40,006 nucleotides of DNA, from contig JAEHGL010000005.1 of assembly GCA_019248485.1 (NCBI GenBank), positions 1-40,006 on the forward strand, written 5' to 3'. This document shows positions 3,594-10,895 of this stretch, piece after piece. Every line of letters begins with the position of its first letter. Position 1 is the first letter of the stretch. The DNA comes from Candidatus Komeilibacteria bacterium S5_K13 (GTDB lineage: Bacteria > Patescibacteriota > Patescibacteriia > UBA1558 > S5-K13). The notes beneath the pieces were generated by a model. It had not been told where the DNA came from and did no database searches. It saw only the letters and a list, made by a program, of their open reading frames with translations. The translations under genes and the position numbers were made by a program.

Positions 3594-3656
3594 CCCCGAA
3601 GGATCATGGCCGAGGGGGATATTGCTCGCCTCGCTGAAGCTGTGGCGAAGCGGGGA
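3594..3656. repeat. GC-rich palindromic patch
   Basis: A GC-rich island in an AT-rich surround. The first part is GGCCCCGAAGGATCATGGCC and the second CTCGCCTCGCTGAAGCTGTG followed by GCGAAGCGGGG, which contains CGCC...GGCG arms. It resembles, in reverse orientation, the palindromes at 9726-9752 and 11588-11613. It directly precedes the duplicated uvrA stump. Confidence 0.55.
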
Positions 3657-3676
3657 AATTTGTAATTAACACATCT

Positions 3677-3733
3677 ATGAACGAACAAATTATAATAAAA
3701 GGTGCGAAAAAGATAAAAAGAATAATAATATAA
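3677..3733 (+). pseudogene. Duplicated 5' stump of uvrA (19-codon remnant)
   Basis: Bases 3677-3705 match the first 29 bases of the intact uvrA (5108-5136) with a single C/T difference. The matching part encodes [10 protein letters not shown] in both. After that the frame runs into lysine-rich codons and stops with TAA at 3731-3733, four bases before the next gene. Chance cannot explain 28 of 29 identical bases starting exactly at the ATG. The likely history is that uvrB and uvrA were adjacent, and material was inserted with duplication of the uvrA head. Confidence 0.8.
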
Positions 3734-3737
3734 ACAT

Positions 3738-4964
3738 ATGGAAAATATTTTTAAAAGAATGTTTAAAAATTCAAATGAAGCAACAAAAAGCTCAGAAACG
3801 ATAAAAAGTCCTGAGCAACAATTGGATCCAGAAAAACAAAAATATATTGATAACTTAAAAAAATATATTTATTGTAGTTCGTGTGACGGAAACCTTGCCT
3901 TAGAAAGACAACTTTGGATTGATGATAATCATATAAACATAAATTTAGAAAGTTATGTTTATTATTCTTTGAGTGGAGCAGATCCCAAAAAGTATTTTGC
4001 AATGAAACAATTAATAGATTCTTTTTATAATAATAATTTTGATATAAATCTTATAAAAGGAAATGTTAGAAAACCAATTCGAGATCCAATTTTGGGTTTA
4101 AAAAATATTGATTGGGAATATATACAAAAAAAAGCAATATTACTACAAAAAATACGGGAAGGTAAATTGAATGATTTTGATGAAAGAAAAATAAAAAAGA
4201 TAATAGGTAAAAACGAGTTTGAAAGAGTGCTGAAAATCACAGATTCAGAGTTAGAAATAGAAAGATTGCGTCTTGAAAAAGAGCAAAGGGCCAGTAGATT
4301 AAAGGAATTTCAAGAATCTGGAAAAGATAAAGACCCTCTTATGGCTAGTGATGTAAATTTTTCTCTATTAGATATTCATTCCAATGGTTCTAATTCTAAA
4401 AATCCACCTATTTTGGGATTGCAATCTGAATTTCCAGAAAATTTAGTAAATTTATCAATAAATGTAAAACAAATTGAAGGAATTCATAGCAAAGAAAGAT
4501 ATAATGATAAAGAATATGAAAATGGTGGATTTTTTGATATTGCTGATACAAGTGGATTTCTGCCTCCAAAAGCAATAGAGAAAATAGTAGAAAAAGACAA
4601 AAAATCTGTGGTTGTAATCTATGGAGGACATTTAAAGCTATGTTTTGGTTCTGCTTTTCGTCAAATTTTAGAAGCTTCATCTTCTAATTCTCCTAAAGCA
4701 ATAGATATACATGTTCCACTGGATAAGTGTTATGACATAGCAGACTCTCAAACAGATGGATATAAATTATCAATAATACCATATGATTCTTCTCAATTTG
4801 AATTGTATAAAGATGGAGAAATTATAAAAGTTGATAAAAATGTAAAACCAGAAAATCCAAGAAGTAGAATCTATTTGTGGAGTGATACTTCAAAAATGTT
4901 AGAGGTAATTAATACGCAACATAGGCTCGATGAGGTTAGAAAGAAAATAAATGTAAAAGAGTGA
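3738..4964 (+). CDS. Hypothetical protein, 408 aa, between uvrB and uvrA
   Basis: I do not recognise this protein. It is soluble, without signal peptide or membrane segment. Residues 1-40 are charged and probably disordered. Residues 40-55 contain a CSSC pair. Residues about 130-215 are strongly helical and charged (KKIIGKNEFERVLKITDSEL, then RLRLEKEQRASRLKEFQESG). The C-terminal half (about 225-400) looks like a mixed alpha/beta domain with VVVIYGGHLKLCFGSAFRQI and AIDIHVPLDKCYDIA; the GGH-containing strand might be a ligand site, but this is a guess. It ends with TGA immediately against the terminal inverted repeat of the MITE-like element. It sits between uvrB and uvrA next to a duplicated uvrA stump, so it is probably an insertion and not part of the repair pathway. 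Confidence 0.8.
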   Translation: MENIFKRMFKNSNEATKSSETIKSPEQQLDPEKQKYIDNLKKYIYCSSCDGNLALERQLWIDDNHININLESYVYYSLSGADPKKYFAMKQLIDSFYNNNFDINLIKGNVRKPIRDPILGLKNIDWEYIQKKAILLQKIREGKLNDFDERKIKKIIGKNEFERVLKITDSELEIERLRLEKEQRASRLKEFQESGKDKDPLMASDVNFSLLDIHSNGSNSKNPPILGLQSEFPENLVNLSINVKQIEGIHSKERYNDKEYENGGFFDIADTSGFLPPKAIEKIVEKDKKSVVVIYGGHLKLCFGSAFRQILEASSSNSPKAIDIHVPLDKCYDIADSQTDGYKLSIIPYDSSQFELYKDGEIIKVDKNVKPENPRSRIYLWSDTSKMLEVINTQHRLDEVRKKINVKE

Positions 4965-5107: not shown

Positions 5108-7636
5108 ATGAATGAACAAATTATAATAAAAGGTGCCAGGATGCATAATCTAAAAAATATAGATTTAGAAATTCCACACAACAAATTAACAGTAATAACA
5201 GGACTTTCTGGTAGTGGAAAGTCGTCTCTTGCTTTTGATACTATTTTTGCTGAAGGTCAGCGTCAATACGTAGAATCACTTTCACCATACATGAGACAAT
5301 TTTTGGGTCAGAAAAAACCCGCTGATGTAGATGAAATAATTGGACTTGCACCATCAATTTCAATTGATCAAAAAGCACTTTCTCACAATCCAAGATCAAC
5401 AGTAGGAACTCTTACTGATATTTATGATTACTTAAGAATTCTTTATGCAAGAGTTGGTGAAGTATTTTGTCCTTTGTGTGGGACAAAAATAGAAAAATTA
5501 TCACTTGAGGAAATGATAGATATAATTATTTCTAAAAAAGTTAGTGATAAAGATTTTGCAGTAATACTTTCTCCAATTGTAATGGATAGAAAAGGAGAAT
5601 ATTATCAAATGCTTTATGATTATCTAAAACTTGGCTATGGAGAAGTTAGAGTTGATGGAAAAATGCATTCACTTCGCGAAAAAATTGTACTAGATCCAAA
5701 GAAAAAGCACAGTATTGATTTGGTAGTTGATAAAGTAATGTTATCTGATGAAACAAGATTATTTGAAGCAGTAGAAAGTTCACTAGCATATAGCAATGGT
5801 CTTGTAATTGTTCAAATAAACAAAGAAGAATTTTTATTATCATCAAACTGGACTTGTCCAAATGATAGTTTTTCATTTCCAGAAGTAGAGCCAAGATTAT
5901 TTTCATTTAATTCTCCACACGGTGCATGTGAAAAATGTTTTGGTTTAGGAAAAATTGGTTTCAAGGGAAAAGTATGTGACAAATGTAATGGTAGAAGATT
6001 ACGAGATGAAGCATTGTCAGTTAGAATTGGAAAACATAACATTGCAGAAGTTTGTGATTTGTCTATTGATAAGGCAATTGAATTTTTTAAGCATTTCAAA
6101 GACAAAATGACAAAACGACAACACGCAATTGCTGATTTGGTAATTAATCAAATTATAAATAGATATGAATTTTTATCAAAAGTTGGTTTAAATTATTTAT
6201 CACTTAGTCGTGAAGCAGAAACATTGTCAGGTGGAGAAGCGCAACGTATAAGATTATCATCTCAGATTGGATCTCAACTTTCTCGCACGCTTTATGTGCT
6301 TGATGAGCCAACAATTGGGCTTCATGAAAGAGATACTGATAGATTAATAGAAACTCTAAAAGCACTACGAGATAAAAACAATACTGTAATAATTGTTGAG
6401 CATGACGAAAGAACTATTCTTGAGTCAGATTATTTAGTTGACCTCGGACCTCTTGCTGGAGTTCACGGTGGTGAAGTTATGGCAATTGGAAATACTTTAG
6501 ATTTACTTGATAGTAAGAAAGATCCGACTTCGCTGAAAGCTACGTCGCGATCCAAATTTGAAAATTCGCTGACTTTACAATATTTAAGAGGTGAAAGAAA
6601 AATTGAATTACCAGCTCACAGACGTGATAAAAATAAAGGATCTATAAAAATTGTCGGAGCAAAAGCAAATAATCTAAAAGGAGTAAATGTAGAAATCCCA
6701 TTAGGCAGAATGGTTGGAATTACTGGTGTCTCTGGTAGTGGTAAATCATCACTTATCTATGATGTGCTTTATAAAAATATCATCAAGATACAACATAGAC
6801 CTACAAAGCCAAATTTAGAAAATGTGAAAGAAATAAAGGGGCTTGAGTATGTTGATAAGCTAGTAATTATAAATCAATCACCAATAGGACGAACTCCGAG
6901 ATCAAATCCAGCAACATACACTGGAATATTTTCACCTATCAGAGAATTCTTTGCAGAACTTCCTGAGTCCCGTGAAAGAGCATACACATTATCTCGTTTT
7001 TCATTCAATCGCGCAGGTGGAAGATGTGAAGCTTGCTCTGGTGCAGGATTTAACCTCATTGAAATGCATTTTTTACCACCAGTGCTTGTGGAGTGTGAAG
7101 TTTGTCATGGCAAAAGATTTAACAGAGAAACATTGCAAGTAAAATACAAAAATCACAGTATTGCTGATGTTCTTGATCTTACAATTGACGAGGCATACAA
7201 ACTTTTTGATGGAAATTATTATATTACTGATAAATTAAAAGTTCTAATAGAAGTTGGACTTGGATATTTGAAATTAGGTCAATCAGCAACAACTCTTTCA
7301 GGTGGAGAAGCTCAGCGCATAAAACTCGCAAAAGAGCTTACAAACACACTTGGAAAACGCACATTATACTTGTTGGATGAGCCCACAACAGGACTTCATT
7401 ATCATGATATTGAATTATTGCTTCACGTGTTAAACAAACTTGTAGAACGTGGAAACACAATTCTGATTATTGAGCATAATTTGCATGTTATAAAATCAAT
7501 GGATTATATAATAGATCTTGGTCCTGATGGTGGGGAAAATGGTGGTCGTGTAATTGCTTACGGAACACCCGACGAAATAGCAAATAATCCTAAGAGTGTG
7601 ACGGGTGAATATTTGAAGAGTTATCTGAAGAAGTAA
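5108..7636 (+). CDS. uvrA: Excinuclease ABC subunit A, short form without insertion domain
   Basis: UvrA is the dimeric, two-ATPase DNA-damage sensor of nucleotide excision repair; it loads UvrB. Seen are Walker [10 protein letters not shown] (residues 32-40), the UvrB-binding region (about 120-250), first signature [16 protein letters not shown] with [14 protein letters not shown], second Walker [10 protein letters not shown], zinc finger CEACSGAG...CEVCHGKR, second [15 protein letters not shown], and [11 protein letters not shown]. Length is 842 aa against about 940. The difference is mostly at the first zinc module: C274/C277 and C290/C293 are only 12 residues apart, where most UvrAs have an insertion domain of about 100 residues. 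The accessory pair CPLC (121-124) is matched by CPND (250-253), so one cysteine is missing. Residues about 472-483 are encoded by a GC-rich palindrome. There is no Shine-Dalgarno sequence. A terminator follows at 7680. Confidence 0.97.
6521..6553. repeat. GC-rich palindrome inside uvrA
   Basis: GATCCGAC (6521-6528) pairs with GTCG-C-GATC (6544-6552), with an inner GCT-GAA-AGC hairpin. It encodes about 11 residues ([12 protein letters not shown]) in the variable loop before SLTLQYLRG, where other UvrAs have only a short linker. Its GC content stands out from the flanking gene. Probably an in-frame insertion tolerated in a loop. Confidence 0.6.
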
Positions 7637-7679
7637 AAGCTATATTGCATTTTAAAATAAAAGTTGTAATATAAATATG

Positions 7680-7700
7680 AAGGCCGTTAAAGGCTTTTTT
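7680..7700 (+). terminator. Terminator after uvrA
   Basis: AAGGCC (7680-7685), six-base loop, GGCTTT (7692-7697), continuing into a T run. Weak stem (six pairs, one G-T) but well placed 44 bp after the uvrA stop. Confidence 0.6.
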
Positions 7701-7723
7701 ATTTATTTAAAAAAATCCAATAT

Positions 7724-8350
7724 ATGTTAGTTTTCATTGATGATTCTGGAGACCCAGGATTTAAAATAGAAAAAGGCTCCACGCCATATTTTGTTATTTC
7801 AATGGTTATATTTGATGATAATCTTGAGGCAGAAAAAACCGCTATTGCTATTAAAGAATTAAAAAGAAAAATCCATTTTAGTGAAAATACTGAATTTAGA
7901 TTTTTTAAAACTAGTTCAATTAATAAAAAGAAATTTTTAAATGTTGTTAATAATTTTAAATTTCGTGTTAGGTGTTTAGTTGTTGATAAATCTTTTATAA
8001 AAAGTCGGGAACTAAAACAAAATAAAAATTCTTTTTATTCATATTTCATTAAAGAGGTTTTGAGAAATAATAATGATACAATCTTAAACGCAAAAATAAA
8101 AATTGACGGCAGCGGCGACAGGATATTTAGACAAAATTTTCTTACATATTTAAGAAAAGAATTAAATTCAAGAGATAAAGTCATAATGAAGCAATGTAAG
8201 ATGATTGATTCAAAAAAAGATGTATTAATACAAATGGCTGACATGGTAGCTGGCAGTATAAATAGATTTTATAATAATGATAAAAAAGATAATATTATTT
8301 ATAAAAATATAATAAAAAAGCATATAGAAGATGAGTGGAAATTCAAGTAA
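7724..8350 (+). CDS. DUF3800 family protein (RNase H-like fold)
   Basis: A 208-aa protein with the DUF3800 hallmarks: an N-terminal acidic strand MLVFIDDSGDPGF (Asp6/Asp7, Asp10), a middle acidic strand KIKIDGSGDR, and the C-terminal helix IQMADMVAGSINRFY. DUF3800 proteins are predicted RNase H-like nucleases, often found in phages and defence or accessory islands. Biochemical function is largely unknown. The length is typical. The gene stands alone between the uvrA terminator and a bidirectional terminator at 8352-8378, which it shares with a candidate small RNA transcribed toward it. The ATG has no Shine-Dalgarno sequence. Confidence 0.88.
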   Translation: MLVFIDDSGDPGFKIEKGSTPYFVISMVIFDDNLEAEKTAIAIKELKRKIHFSENTEFRFFKTSSINKKKFLNVVNNFKFRVRCLVVDKSFIKSRELKQNKNSFYSYFIKEVLRNNNDTILNAKIKIDGSGDRIFRQNFLTYLRKELNSRDKVIMKQCKMIDSKKDVLIQMADMVAGSINRFYNNDKKDNIIYKNIIKKHIEDEWKFK

Positions 8351-8351
8351 T

Positions 8352-8378
8352 AAAAAAACCTCCTAAAAAGGAGCTTTT
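8352..8378. terminator. Bidirectional terminator between the DUF3800 gene and a minus-strand RNA
   Basis: Stem CTCCT (8360-8364) / AGGAG (8369-8373) with A4 loop, A7 on the left and TTTT on the right of the plus strand. On the minus strand it ends in T7, so it is the stronger terminator in that direction. Confidence 0.8.
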
Positions 8379-8450
8379 CCAACCACGTCTCTATACTAGT
8401 TGTCCTAGTCACGCCACCATCCGGTGACAGTTCAAGATACAGGTTTATGT
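8352..8450 (-). ncRNA. Candidate small non-coding RNA, about 100 nt
   Basis: The minus strand carries a textbook promoter (TTGACA, 17 bp, TATAAT) whose start would fall near 8450, and a strong terminator about 100 nt later. The predicted RNA has a GUCAC/GUGAC hairpin (which can alternatively form CACC-GGAU-GGUG), then ACUAG-GACAA-CUAGU, a single-stranded UAUAGAGACGUGGUUGGAAAA, and the terminator hairpin. No reading frame with a start and reasonable length is present. It matches no riboswitch, SRP, 6S, tmRNA or ribozyme core that I know, and no gene follows for it to act as a leader. The family is unknown. Confidence 0.65.
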
Positions 8451-8456
8451 AATTAC

Positions 8457-8485
8457 ATTATATCTTACGTAAGATAGCCTGTCAA
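8457..8485 (-). promoter_or_regulatory. Consensus sigma-70 promoter of the small RNA
   Basis: On the minus strand TTGACA (8485-8480), 17-bp spacer, TATAAT (8462-8457): all twelve consensus bases. The spacer contains the palindrome TATCTTACGTAAGATA, overlapping the -10 box, a possible operator. Few promoters in the window are this close to consensus. Confidence 0.85.
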
Positions 8486-8555
8486 TAACCCTTTTAATAA
8501 TCTCGATAATATTCGTATTATTTCCGCCAGAGGCATTTGTATTATTATTCGTATT

Positions 8556-8590
8556 GATTAGTATTATTAGTACAATTCGTATATTAGCAT
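8556..8590. repeat. 35-bp AT-rich dispersed repeat, copy 2
   Basis: Matches 94-128 with one mismatch. The gene-free stretch 8351-8668 contains only the shared terminator, the candidate small RNA, its promoter and this repeat. Confidence 0.8.
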
Positions 8591-8668
8591 TGTATACGTA
8601 TTCGTATAATTGCTTTTTAGCTTAAAAAATGGGAAAATTAAAATGTTAATATTAATAAAATCAATATT

Positions 8669-8860
8669 ATGGGTATAAAAGTTAAACCAGTTTTTCATAA
8701 GGAAATGCAATACGATATTGAAATAGTAGATGACCATTATGTGGTCGTAAATACTCAGAGACCAAGAAATCATAAGAAACCAAGAAAAGGACCCGAATTT
8801 GAAATGGAAAGAAAATTCGTTTCAATTGAGGAAGCAGAAGATTTTATAAAAAATCTATAA
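8669..8860 (+). CDS. Hypothetical protein, 63 aa
   Basis: A small basic protein: an N-terminal beta-rich segment (YDIEIVDDHYVVVNTQRPR), a lysine/proline-rich loop (NHKKPRKGPEFE), and a C-terminal acidic helix (VSIEEAEDFIKNL). Not recognised. It opens a run of very small genes (8669-9847) in the same direction. The start has no Shine-Dalgarno sequence. Even codon pattern and a clean start suggest a real gene, but the small size limits confidence. Confidence 0.6.
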   Translation: MGIKVKPVFHKEMQYDIEIVDDHYVVVNTQRPRNHKKPRKGPEFEMERKFVSIEEAEDFIKNL

Positions 8861-8914
8861 AATAATCATATAAATTTATGAAAAAACTAAAATTTTTATT
8901 TATAACATAAAAAT

Positions 8915-9136
8915 ATGTCACATATTTTAACACAATATTTAATAACTTTCGGTTGAGCTATAACTGGTGCTATATCAATGGCGATTGCACTTGGAATTTT
9001 AGTAAAAATATTTTCATGGATTACTCCAATTAATGAATGGGAAGAAATAAAAAATGGAAATATTGGAGTTGCAATTATAATGGCAAGTACAATTATTGGA
9101 ACAGCATTAGTAATTGGTCTTACAATAATGCCTTAA
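8915..9136 (+). pseudogene. DUF350-family small membrane protein with in-frame TGA at codon 14
   Basis: From ATG 8915 the frame reads MSHILTQYLITFG, then TGA (8954-8956), then AITGAISMAIALGILVKIFS, then WITPINEWEEIKNGNIGVAI and a second membrane segment ending LTIMP. The ITP...EW..IK.GN..VAI pattern is characteristic of DUF350, a two-membrane-segment family. The frame stays open on both sides of the TGA. A start at ATG 8978 would give a 52-aa product lacking most of the first membrane helix. TGA is a normal stop elsewhere here, so this is a nonsense mutation (perhaps from TGG), a sequencing or strain variant, or a case of readthrough. Confidence 0.7.
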
Positions 9137-9138
9137 AT

Positions 9139-9384
9139 ATGAACAATAAATCTAAAATAATAATTCTAATTTTACTTTTTATTCTTATTTTACCAATAAG
9201 TGTTTTTGCTCATCCCGGTAGAACAGATTCAAATGGTTGTCATACATGTAAAAAGAATTGTTCTTCTTGGGGGTTAAAAGATCAAGAATATCATTGTCAT
9301 ATAAAACCAGCAACAACTGAAACTAAAGAAGCCAGAACAGAAGCAAGGCAAGATGTTAATACAGAAGCTAGATTAAAAAAATAG
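9139..9384 (+). CDS. Exported YHYH-type small protein, 81 aa
   Basis: Start at ATG 9139, two bases after the DUF350 stop; a longer in-frame start at 9037 would overlap DUF350 and lose the signal peptide. Residues about 1-25 form a signal peptide (NNKSKIIILILLFILILPIS, cut near VFA). The mature part is the compact motif HPGRTDSNGCHTCKKNCSSW followed by GLKDQEYHCH, the Cys variant of the YHYH domain (GRTDxxGxHT...EYHxH), rich in His and Cys and likely to bind metal. The tail (TETKEARTEARQDVNTEARL) is a charged low-complexity repeat. The exact role is unknown; it acts outside the membrane. Confidence 0.8.
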   Translation: MNNKSKIIILILLFILILPISVFAHPGRTDSNGCHTCKKNCSSWGLKDQEYHCHIKPATTETKEARTEARQDVNTEARLKK

Positions 9385-9392
9385 TATAAAAT

Positions 9393-9617
9393 ATGAAATT
9401 TAGATTTAGAAAATCAATACCATTGGGGAAAAATGTTCGTTTAAATCTTAGTAAAAAAGGCCCTGGCTTAAGCGTTGGTTTATTAAAGTGGTTTCGCATA
9501 GGTATTGGAACTAAAGGAGCTTATACAAGCACAAGTATTCCAAAAACCGGCTTATATTCTATAGATTATTTGAATAAAAAAACTTTGAAAGCTAGATTAG
9601 ATAATATTTTATTTTAA
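9393..9617 (+). CDS. DUF4236 domain protein, 74 aa
   Basis: Begins MKFRFRKSIPLGKNVRLNLS and continues KKGPGLSVGL...GIGTKGAYTSTSIPKTGLYS. This is the DUF4236 signature (fRFRKs...lNlSkkGpg.SvG...tG.pGtG). The family is small, bacterial and of unknown function, often next to membrane or phage-related genes. The gene begins 8 bp after the YHYH gene, so the two are probably co-transcribed. The C-terminus (DYLNKKTLKARLDNILF) goes beyond the domain. Confidence 0.85.
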   Translation: MKFRFRKSIPLGKNVRLNLSKKGPGLSVGLLKWFRIGIGTKGAYTSTSIPKTGLYSIDYLNKKTLKARLDNILF

Positions 9618-9656
9618 TAATGTTAAAAAATAAACTCAAAAATTTCAAAAATCCAT

Positions 9657-9847
9657 ATGAAAAATAAAAAACTATTATATTTAATTCCATTAATACTATT
9701 CGGTATTTTTGTATTTGTTTATGGCCTCGCCTTCGCCAAGGCTTCGGCGTAGCCCTGGGATATGATGATAGTCCCGGCGCACAAGGATTGGGATTATTGT
9801 TTGTGATTTTTGGGGTTGTAGGGATAATTAAAAAACGGAAAAAATAA
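9657..9847 (+). pseudogene. Small two-helix membrane protein broken by a 29-bp GC-rich palindrome
   Basis: From ATG 9657 the frame reads MKNKKLLYLIPLILFGIFVF, then VYG, then enters a GC-rich palindrome and stops at a TAG in it. A second frame, shifted by two, then encodes GYDDSPGAQGLGLLFVIFGV, then VGIIKKRKK and TAA at 9845. Removing exactly 29 bp (9726-9754, which leaves one of two GCC copies) joins the two into a 53-aa protein with two membrane helices, a GYDDSPG loop and a KKRKK end. The gene was probably intact until the element inserted. Confidence 0.75.
9726..9754. repeat. GC-rich palindromic element disrupting a small gene
   Basis: CTCGCCTTCGCCAAGGCTTC then GGCGTAG (9726-9752), able to fold as GCCTT-CGCC-AAGGC with outer CGCC/GGCG. 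It is flanked by GCC at 9724-9726 and 9752-9754, a possible 3-bp target duplication. It is nearly identical to the copy in uvrC at 11588-11613. Confidence 0.75.
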
Positions 9848-9871
9848 GTAAATTATTTGTTATTATTTCTA

Positions 9872-9901
9872 TCACAATCCCGCTCAGCGGGATTGTTTTT
9901 T
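9872..9901 (+). terminator. Strong Rho-independent terminator
   Basis: Perfect 9-bp stem CAATCCCGC (9875-9883) / GCGGGATTG (9887-9895) with a TCA loop and a T6 tail. It ends the small-gene run and insulates the Fic promoter. Confidence 0.92.
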
Positions 9902-9909
9902 ATGAATTT

Positions 9910-9979
9910 GACGTGAATTTGTGTAGAATTTAGACAAAATTCACGTTGTATTGACATTTTGACGTGAATTCTGTATAAT
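9910..9979 (+). promoter_or_regulatory. Consensus promoter with three operator-like boxes before the Fic gene
   Basis: TTGACA (9951-9956), 17-bp spacer, TATAAT (9974-9979). GACGTGAATT occurs at 9910-9919 and again at 9961-9970, inside the spacer; its inverted form AATTCACGT lies at 9938-9946. A protein bound to the spacer copy would block RNA polymerase. The Fic protein has a C-terminal helix-turn-helix-like region, so autorepression is likely but not shown. Confidence 0.8.
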
Positions 9980-10004
9980 TACAGTATAATTAATATCTAA
10001 ATAT

Positions 10005-10892
10005 ATGGCCATATCAAATGATATAAAAACACGAATAAATACACTTAAAAAAGAATATGATTTTTTAAGAAAAGGCAAAGAATCTCTTTTAAGTATTCTA
10101 TTTGAAGCTGAATTATCAGAGTCTGTTTATAATTCTAATGCCATTGAGAATTCTACTCTAACTATTTCTGAAACAGAAAAAATTCTTTTGGATATGGAAG
10201 TTTCTAGAGATGTTTCTGTAAGAGAAATATTCGAAGCAAAAAATTTGGCACAAGTTTCTGAATACATACAAACAAAAATCAGTTTAAATAATGTAGATAA
10301 AGAATTAATTTTACTTCTTCATAAAATGTTAATATTAAATATAAATTCTGATATTGCTGGTAGATTTAGAAGGGGTGGTGAATATGTAAGAGTTGGAACT
10401 CATATTGCACCAGCCCCAGAACATGTTGAAGTTATGATTGAATCAGCTCTTTTGAATTATTCAAGTGATCATGTTAAATATTTTCTAGAAAAAATTGTAA
10501 AATTTCATCTTGATTTTGAACATATCCATCCATTTTGTGATGGAAATGGAAGAATAGGGCGCGTACTTATTAATTATCAATTAATGCAACTTGGATTTCC
10601 ACCAATTATAATTCGCAACAAAGAAAAACAAATTTATTATAAATCTTTTAATGAATATAAGAATAGTAATGATACAAAATCTGATACTATGGAAAAAGTT
10701 ATGTCACTTGCTCTTCTAGAATCGTTACACAAAAGAATTTCATATTTAAAGGGTGATAAAATTATTAGATTTGCAGAATATGCTAAAATTAAAAAAGAAT
10801 CAACTTCTATTCTTTTGAATAAGGCAAAAAGACAAACAATTCCTGCTTTTCGTGAAAAAGGAATTTGGAAAATTGGTATAAAAAATAGTTAA
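10005..10892 (+). CDS. Fic family protein (AMPylator) with C-terminal DNA-binding-like region
   Basis: Fic enzymes usually transfer AMP to target hydroxyl groups. The full catalytic motif HPFCDGNGRIGR is at residues 175-186, with the upstream flap region (RRGGEYVRVGTHIAPAPEHV, 122-141). An N-terminal inhibitory motif SNAIEN (44-49) fits the (S/T)xxxE(G/N) rule, making this a self-inhibited class II Fic. The C-terminal 40 residues (FAEYAKIKKESTSILLNKAK, then RQTIPAFREKGIWKIG) look like a helix-turn-helix or winged module. With the repeated GACGTGAATT boxes in the promoter this suggests autoregulation. The uvrC gene starts 3 bp after the stop, so it is probably co-transcribed. Length 295 aa is somewhat short for the Fic/DUF4172-type proteins. 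The target is unknown. Confidence 0.93.
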   Translation: MAISNDIKTRINTLKKEYDFLRKGKESLLSILFEAELSESVYNSNAIENSTLTISETEKILLDMEVSRDVSVREIFEAKNLAQVSEYIQTKISLNNVDKELILLLHKMLILNINSDIAGRFRRGGEYVRVGTHIAPAPEHVEVMIESALLNYSSDHVKYFLEKIVKFHLDFEHIHPFCDGNGRIGRVLINYQLMQLGFPPIIIRNKEKQIYYKSFNEYKNSNDTKSDTMEKVMSLALLESLHKRISYLKGDKIIRFAEYAKIKKESTSILLNKAKRQTIPAFREKGIWKIGIKNS

Positions 10893-10895
10893 TCC

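Follow-up and report, generated by a model that had tools for sequence, protein, structure and literature searches.

The stretch of DNA analysed here, 40,006 nt in total and referred to as the window, raises the question of what is transcribed from a short segment of its minus strand that is equipped with a promoter and a terminator of its own and converges on a DUF3800 gene. From the sequence, the original prediction had proposed a small RNA of an undescribed class which might control this gene. The existence of such an RNA, with a dedicated promoter and in convergent orientation to DUF3800, was borne out by the present analysis (Table 1), whereas the proposed novelty and mode of action had to be revised.

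Table 1. Positions of the DUF3800 gene, the convergent small RNA and associated features in the window, and loci with which they were compared
Feature	Position	Strand	Remarks
DUF3800 gene	7724-8350	plus	208 aa, intact; Pfam PF12686, E 3.4e-17
Intrinsic terminator	8373-8352	minus	stem 8373-8360, then T run; between RNA and DUF3800 stop codon
DUF3800-IX RNA (RF02968)	8377-8445	minus	three-way junction; 52.9 bits by cmscan against a gathering score of 36.8; full length (model positions 1-67 of 67)
P1 closing stem, 3' arm	8381-8391	minus	Rfam alignment; covariation
Hairpin P3 (ACUAG GACAA CUAGU)	8395-8409	minus	Rfam alignment; covariation helix 4
Hairpin P2 (UGUCACC GGAU GGUGGCG)	8412-8429	minus	Rfam alignment; covariation helix 3
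P1 closing stem, 5' arm	8434-8445	minus	Rfam alignment; covariation helices 1 and 2
-10 box TATAAT	8462-8457	minus	spacer to -35 box of 17
Palindrome TATCTTACGTAAGATA	8461-8476	strandless	exact, 16 nt, over -10 region
-35 box TTGACA	8485-8480	minus	consensus match; position kept in relatives
63-aa ORF	8669-8860		follows the DUF3800 pair; nothing matched in Pfam
RNA-only loci			L002, L006, L010, L012, L013, L018, L022, L025, L041, L048, L050, L051
Second RNA (12 loci)	just downstream of DUF3800 stop codon	opposite	L078, L079, L081, L179, L181, L183-L189

The predicted promoter, TTGACA-17-TATAAT, matches the consensus at all 12 positions. It was the only perfect site among 10 promoter-like sites between positions 7400 and 9600, where weak sites were not above chance (10 versus a shuffle mean of 14.4). 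Upstream of the RNA, at least 9 of 12 promoter positions were matched in 75% of 115 distinct loci, compared with 5% of random 60-mers drawn from the same loci, and in 77 of 86 loci a distance of 11-12 nt separated the end of the -10 box from the RNA. Being the sole perfect site of its region and conserved in position among relatives, the promoter is more than a chance occurrence. Judged from the spacing, transcription is expected to start near position 8450, and the strong promoter would give rise to an RNA of about 75-105 nt. The remaining parts of the predicted layout were likewise present: between the promoter and the terminator stem (CTCCTTTTTAGGAG, then a T run) lie about 100 nt of non-coding, structured sequence, and no notable reading frame extends across the transcript. 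A palindrome over the -10 region, TATCTTACGTAAGATA, had additionally been read as a sign of regulation. It is exact and the only one of its kind found; by our own estimate, such 16-nt palindromes are expected once or twice per 40 kb of AT-rich DNA. Since it has no second copy in the genome, is absent at the other RNA loci and does not exceed the chance frequency, regulation through it is unsupported and its occurrence probably fortuitous.

When the entire window was searched against Rfam 15, a single match exceeded its gathering score, that to RF02968, the DUF3800-IX RNA; RsmY, Phe_leader and other weak matches were far under their cut-offs. Because the match covers the full length of the model and exceeds its gathering score, the window RNA belongs to a catalogued family. 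The original prediction had itself named a Rfam/Infernal hit to a known class as an outcome that would speak against it, and its description of the RNA as undescribed and matching no class is therefore wrong. In full-length match, structure and DUF3800 neighbour the RNA agrees with RF02968, from which nothing differs in kind, and it represents a new occurrence in a Patescibacteria-type genome. A model built here, R1, gave 69.7 bits for the window RNA, which is itself part of the R1 seed. Rfam contains several RNA families named after DUF3800, and DUF3800-IX, one of these, was found merely mentioned in the literature search; the DUF3800 motifs are said to originate from a paper in NAR in 2017. 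The DUF3800-IX consensus structure was revised with covariation data in Rfam 15 (PMC11701678).

The minimum-free-energy fold of the window transcript is the three-way junction of the family followed by the terminator, and 10 of 11 P1 pairs are formed in addition to P2 and P3. Both hairpins recognised from the sequence are real, CACC/GGUG corresponding to P2 and ACUAG/CUAGU to P3; the closing stem P1 had been missed. Covariation in the stems, which had been suggested as a check, was analysed in 65 distinct RNAs aligned by sequence. Changes on both sides were observed in 17 of 20 pairs, all stems covaried strongly, and the proportion of paired cells amounted to 90.7%, as against 71.5% in column shuffles and 30-47% with the partners slid by 1-3 columns. 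On this comparative evidence the element is to be regarded as a real small RNA gene of a known Rfam family.

The convergent DUF3800 gene was confirmed, with a PF12686 score of 64 bits against a curated cut-off of 21. The protein contains all residues that are invariant in 24 relatives, the acidic D6, D10, E57, D128 and D173 among them, and an ID(E/D)SGD motif was noted in the same comparison. In Pfam, DUF3800 alone was matched, the RNase HII profile PF01351 giving no match, and no convincing sequence relative with a solved structure was found; fold comparison alone succeeded. When the AlphaFold2 model (pLDDT 89, pTM 0.88) was compared with 350,542 PDB chains by Foldseek, the only matches below E 0.001 were RNase HII structures, among them 3p83_F (E 2.4e-5, probability 1.00, TM about 0.5-0.58). 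The DUF3800 protein is thus predicted from its modelled fold to be an RNase HII-like nuclease. A separate rnhB gene is present in the genome (G000:C48). In one paper, DUF3800 is linked to putative ncRNAs and predicted to have an RNase H fold. The protein furthermore matches the phage-defence candidate PDC-M04A of PADLOC.

In order to avoid circularity in assessing how closely RNA and protein are linked, 80 DUF3800 loci were fetched using the protein alone. The RNA was found convergent and directly downstream in 80 of these 80 loci. It scored above the Rfam gathering threshold in 75 of them; in four (L162, L144, L149 and L133) it was at or just under the threshold in the same place, as revealed by a lower-threshold search, and in the last, L147, it was matched by the model built here with 47 bits. 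At L073, a close relative in the sampled genomes that the Rfam model missed, our own model detected a divergent RNA at the corresponding position (23.2 bits). No protein without RNA occurred among the loci examined. The distance from the stop codon to the 3' end of the RNA ranged from -11 to +61 nt in 51 measured loci and fell mostly into two narrow classes: at -3 to +8 nt the T run directly continues P1, and at 22-28 nt a separate terminator lies in between, as in the window, where 26 nt separate the stop codon from the RNA model. RNA and protein have diverged together, given that RNAs starting with GGAATT are confined to one strongly supported protein clade (12 rows, support 100).

The pair is present in single copy in the genome, and the DUF3800-IX RNA is widespread but sporadic: of 189 sampled relatives 13 carried it, the counts for sampled genomes at the level of phylum and class were 17 of 380 and 31 of 381, and it was absent from three genomes of the same family. 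Related proteins occur in Patescibacteria, Nitrospirota, Pseudomonadota, Planctomycetota and Actinomycetota, and hosts from different phyla on neighbouring tree branches indicate that the pair was transferred as a unit. Named isolates carrying it are Rubellimicrobium aerolatum DSM 19297, Sphingomonas sp. YR710 and Legionella impletisoli.

At 12 of 51 RNA loci (Table 1), no DUF3800 match was obtained although the contig continues. A C-terminal DUF3800 scrap still abuts the RNA at L006 and L041 (E about 1e-4) and, more weakly, at L012 and L013, and the promoter score was at least 9 in 9 of the 12. Two genomes of one genus, G250 (L026/L032) and G263 (L025), carry an identical RNA at the same site; in one of the two DUF3800 comes next, and the other has an unrelated gene of 158 aa (MLKFSDEQFREIKE...) there. 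Behind the unit, G250 also keeps an orphan GGAATT-type RNA. Apparent tblastn remnants derived from the frameshifted ORF of L044 were discarded, because this ORF reads through the RNA itself. RNA without protein, and never the reverse, is the pattern expected of an antitoxin; the 12:0 asymmetry taken alone is weak, since the gene is about nine times as long as the RNA, would be lost more often, and makes such a count unsurprising at 9:1 odds.

Near-universal linkage and co-diversification strongly support a functional link between RNA and DUF3800, and it is probable that the RNA binds the protein directly. With roughly equal chances of being right or wrong, we propose that the RNA and the convergent DUF3800 gene form an obligate partnership and that the RNA holds the nuclease as a cognate antitoxin would. 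The RNA would bind the RNase HII-like protein as its cognate partner, the strong promoter would keep the RNA in excess and thereby the nuclease inactive, and the nuclease would be freed once the RNA runs out, for instance when a phage shuts off host transcription. The module would then work like type III toxin-antitoxin or AbiF systems. The abiF motif RNA beside Abi_2 genes has been shown to be an RNA antitoxin which binds and neutralises its protein, and in Clostridioides difficile (RCd22) it resembles DUF3800-IX in being a short, structured RNA that contains conserved motifs and is closely linked to a single nuclease-like gene (PMC12373285). It lies upstream of its gene and has two repeated motifs, whereas DUF3800-IX is a single convergent RNA with its own promoter; moreover, the AbiF protein is Cas13-like, whereas DUF3800 has a predicted RNase HII fold and its RNA binding is inferred. 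Together with this precedent, the strong conserved promoter and the persistence of the RNA beyond its gene favour inhibition over activation, a preference that we hold at a little less than even confidence.

The type III toxin-antitoxin systems ToxIN, CptIN and TenpIN are comparable in the possible neutralisation of a nuclease by RNA. Their hallmark is an RNA antitoxin made of tandem repeats, which precedes the toxin gene and is transcribed together with it. The DUF3800 pair differs in this layout, its RNA being a single copy, convergent and transcribed from its own promoter, without tandem repeats or co-transcription, and the nuclease fold is unrelated.

The alternative that survives best is that the nuclease works as an RNA-protein complex in which the RNA serves as an activating or scaffolding cofactor, placing the substrate or triggering cleavage but not acting as a programmable guide. 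Universal linkage, co-diversification and the nuclease fold are consistent with it, an activator or scaffold being expected to produce the same linkage pattern, and some V-A2 and VI-F CRISPR loci likewise contain DUF3800 proteins (PMC10910872, PMC12669027). As in TnpB and IscB with their omega RNAs, a nuclease of the RNase H superfamily is encoded beside a structured RNA; the DUF3800 RNA, however, is on the opposite strand and lacks a guide segment, and DUF3800 is much smaller and RNase HII-like rather than RuvC-like. In the loci inspected, no variable unpaired segment was seen between the expected start and the terminator, and since the conserved stems fill the transcript, a guide function is unlikely. 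Furthermore, a mere cofactor would not need the RNA-only loci that persist, most of them with the promoter. We therefore consider a cofactor role unlikely, albeit worth retaining beside the antitoxin reading.

Action on the gene instead of the protein, either as an antisense or trans regulator of the DUF3800 mRNA or through silencing by convergent transcription, would fit the convergent layout with abutting 3' ends. The duplex energies, however, were the same for cognate and swapped partners, both with the DUF3800 leader (mean rank 0.48, p 0.38) and with the DUF3800 3' end (mean rank 0.53, p 0.81), which leaves antisense control unsupported and sets the pair apart from type I (antisense) systems. 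In addition, the conserved fold exceeds what antisense pairing needs, and in most loci the structured part of the RNA is outside the coding sequence. Antisense control is accordingly improbable. Of the RNA-based control suggested initially, the functional link stands and control through the mRNA does not; an action on the protein, as in the antitoxin reading, is the likelier one.

Still less probable, and only a slight chance in our estimate, is a self-mobilising element in which the RNA is part of mobility, or one in which the hairpins form a site of recombination like the attC of integrons. The sporadic distribution described above (31 of 381 class genomes, none of the three of the same family), the related proteins in the phyla listed above and the position of the RNA right after a stop codon, which resembles that of attC, would agree with this. 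The closing stem, however, varies freely in sequence while remaining paired and has no constant core site, the element is preceded by a conserved promoter, and no common boundaries beyond the pair were seen, its neighbourhood varying between genomes. A bidirectional terminator with a spurious promoter would account for the terminator that is indeed present, and is refuted by the conserved promoter and the covarying three-way junction (65 distinct sequences) of a curated family, which leaves it a negligible probability.

Whether the proposed antitoxin-nuclease pair serves defence is evenly balanced on the sequence data. The pair and a Fic gene, which matches the PADLOC defence candidate PDC-S04/SoFic, lie between uvrA and uvrC (window 7637-10895). 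The content of this interval differs in each of the three genomes of the same family, G001 having no such genes and G002 and G003 other genes. The interval is a gene-turnover hot spot in this genome family, with the DUF3800 pair, small ORFs and Fic as its cargo in the window. Among 91 nearest neighbours housekeeping genes were common, and the search for defence enrichment gave no clear signal, no PADLOC family being matched more than three times. Carriage of the pair by phages or plasmids was rejected: searches with the window DUF3800 protein found nothing among INPHARED phages and a single distant hit among plasmids (29% identity, Leptospira), and plasmid DNA gave no match. In IMG/VR, 14 distant DUF3800 relatives were found, 9 of them with RNA; the contigs concerned are perhaps prophages or chromosomal stretches.

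In a separate DUF3800 clade, whose proteins start with the motif DESGDLGF, the convergent position is taken by another small RNA, which is about 60 nt long and driven by a promoter of its own (12 loci, Table 1). Its core reads GUAAAUCCU..GGG..CCGUAUGG..CUCGUAAAUAGC..GGGUUUU, and the CCG(U/G)AUGG hairpin at its apex is similar to P2 of DUF3800-IX. In the closing stem 7 pairs were changed on both sides among the 12 sequences, and for this small set 0 of 500 shuffles were as high on paired cells or covariation score. In the three of the 12 loci that were scanned, Rfam gave no match beside the gene at E up to 1; the exact pattern did not occur in viral contigs, and DUF3800-I and DUF3800-VII had no credible match in the genomes. 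Covariation in a separate clade and the P2-like hairpin suggest that pairing with an RNA may be general in DUF3800 and the Rfam list incomplete, as far as 12 sequences and a partial run of the Rfam DUF3800 models go. At L128, DUF3800-IX and DUF3800-V RNAs adjoin on the minus strand behind one DUF3800 gene (3647-3715 and 3837-3932). Downstream of DUF3800 at L171, L174 and L175 of IMG/VR lies another convergent RNA-like segment (GUACCGAAUGACC...GCCACAGAGGUC) with a TTGAC..TATATT-type promoter, which went unrecognised by our model derived from DUF3800-IX.

As the RNA is already catalogued, the finding as first stated is not new. Rfam contains several RNA families linked to DUF3800 that have no assigned function, and function is what would matter; the evidence from sequence comparison narrows DUF3800-IX to a putative cognate RNA-nuclease pair. 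Tentatively, and with the balance somewhat against it, DUF3800 proteins may form an extensive class of RNase HII-like effectors in which every clade has a dedicated convergent small RNA, with RNA types exceeding the Rfam list; they would constitute a new type of RNA-controlled toxin or defence module carried by Patescibacteria and, as a result of horizontal transfer, by many other phyla. Near-absolute pairing, the RNase HII fold and the named isolates make the pair a testable two-component nuclease-RNA system.
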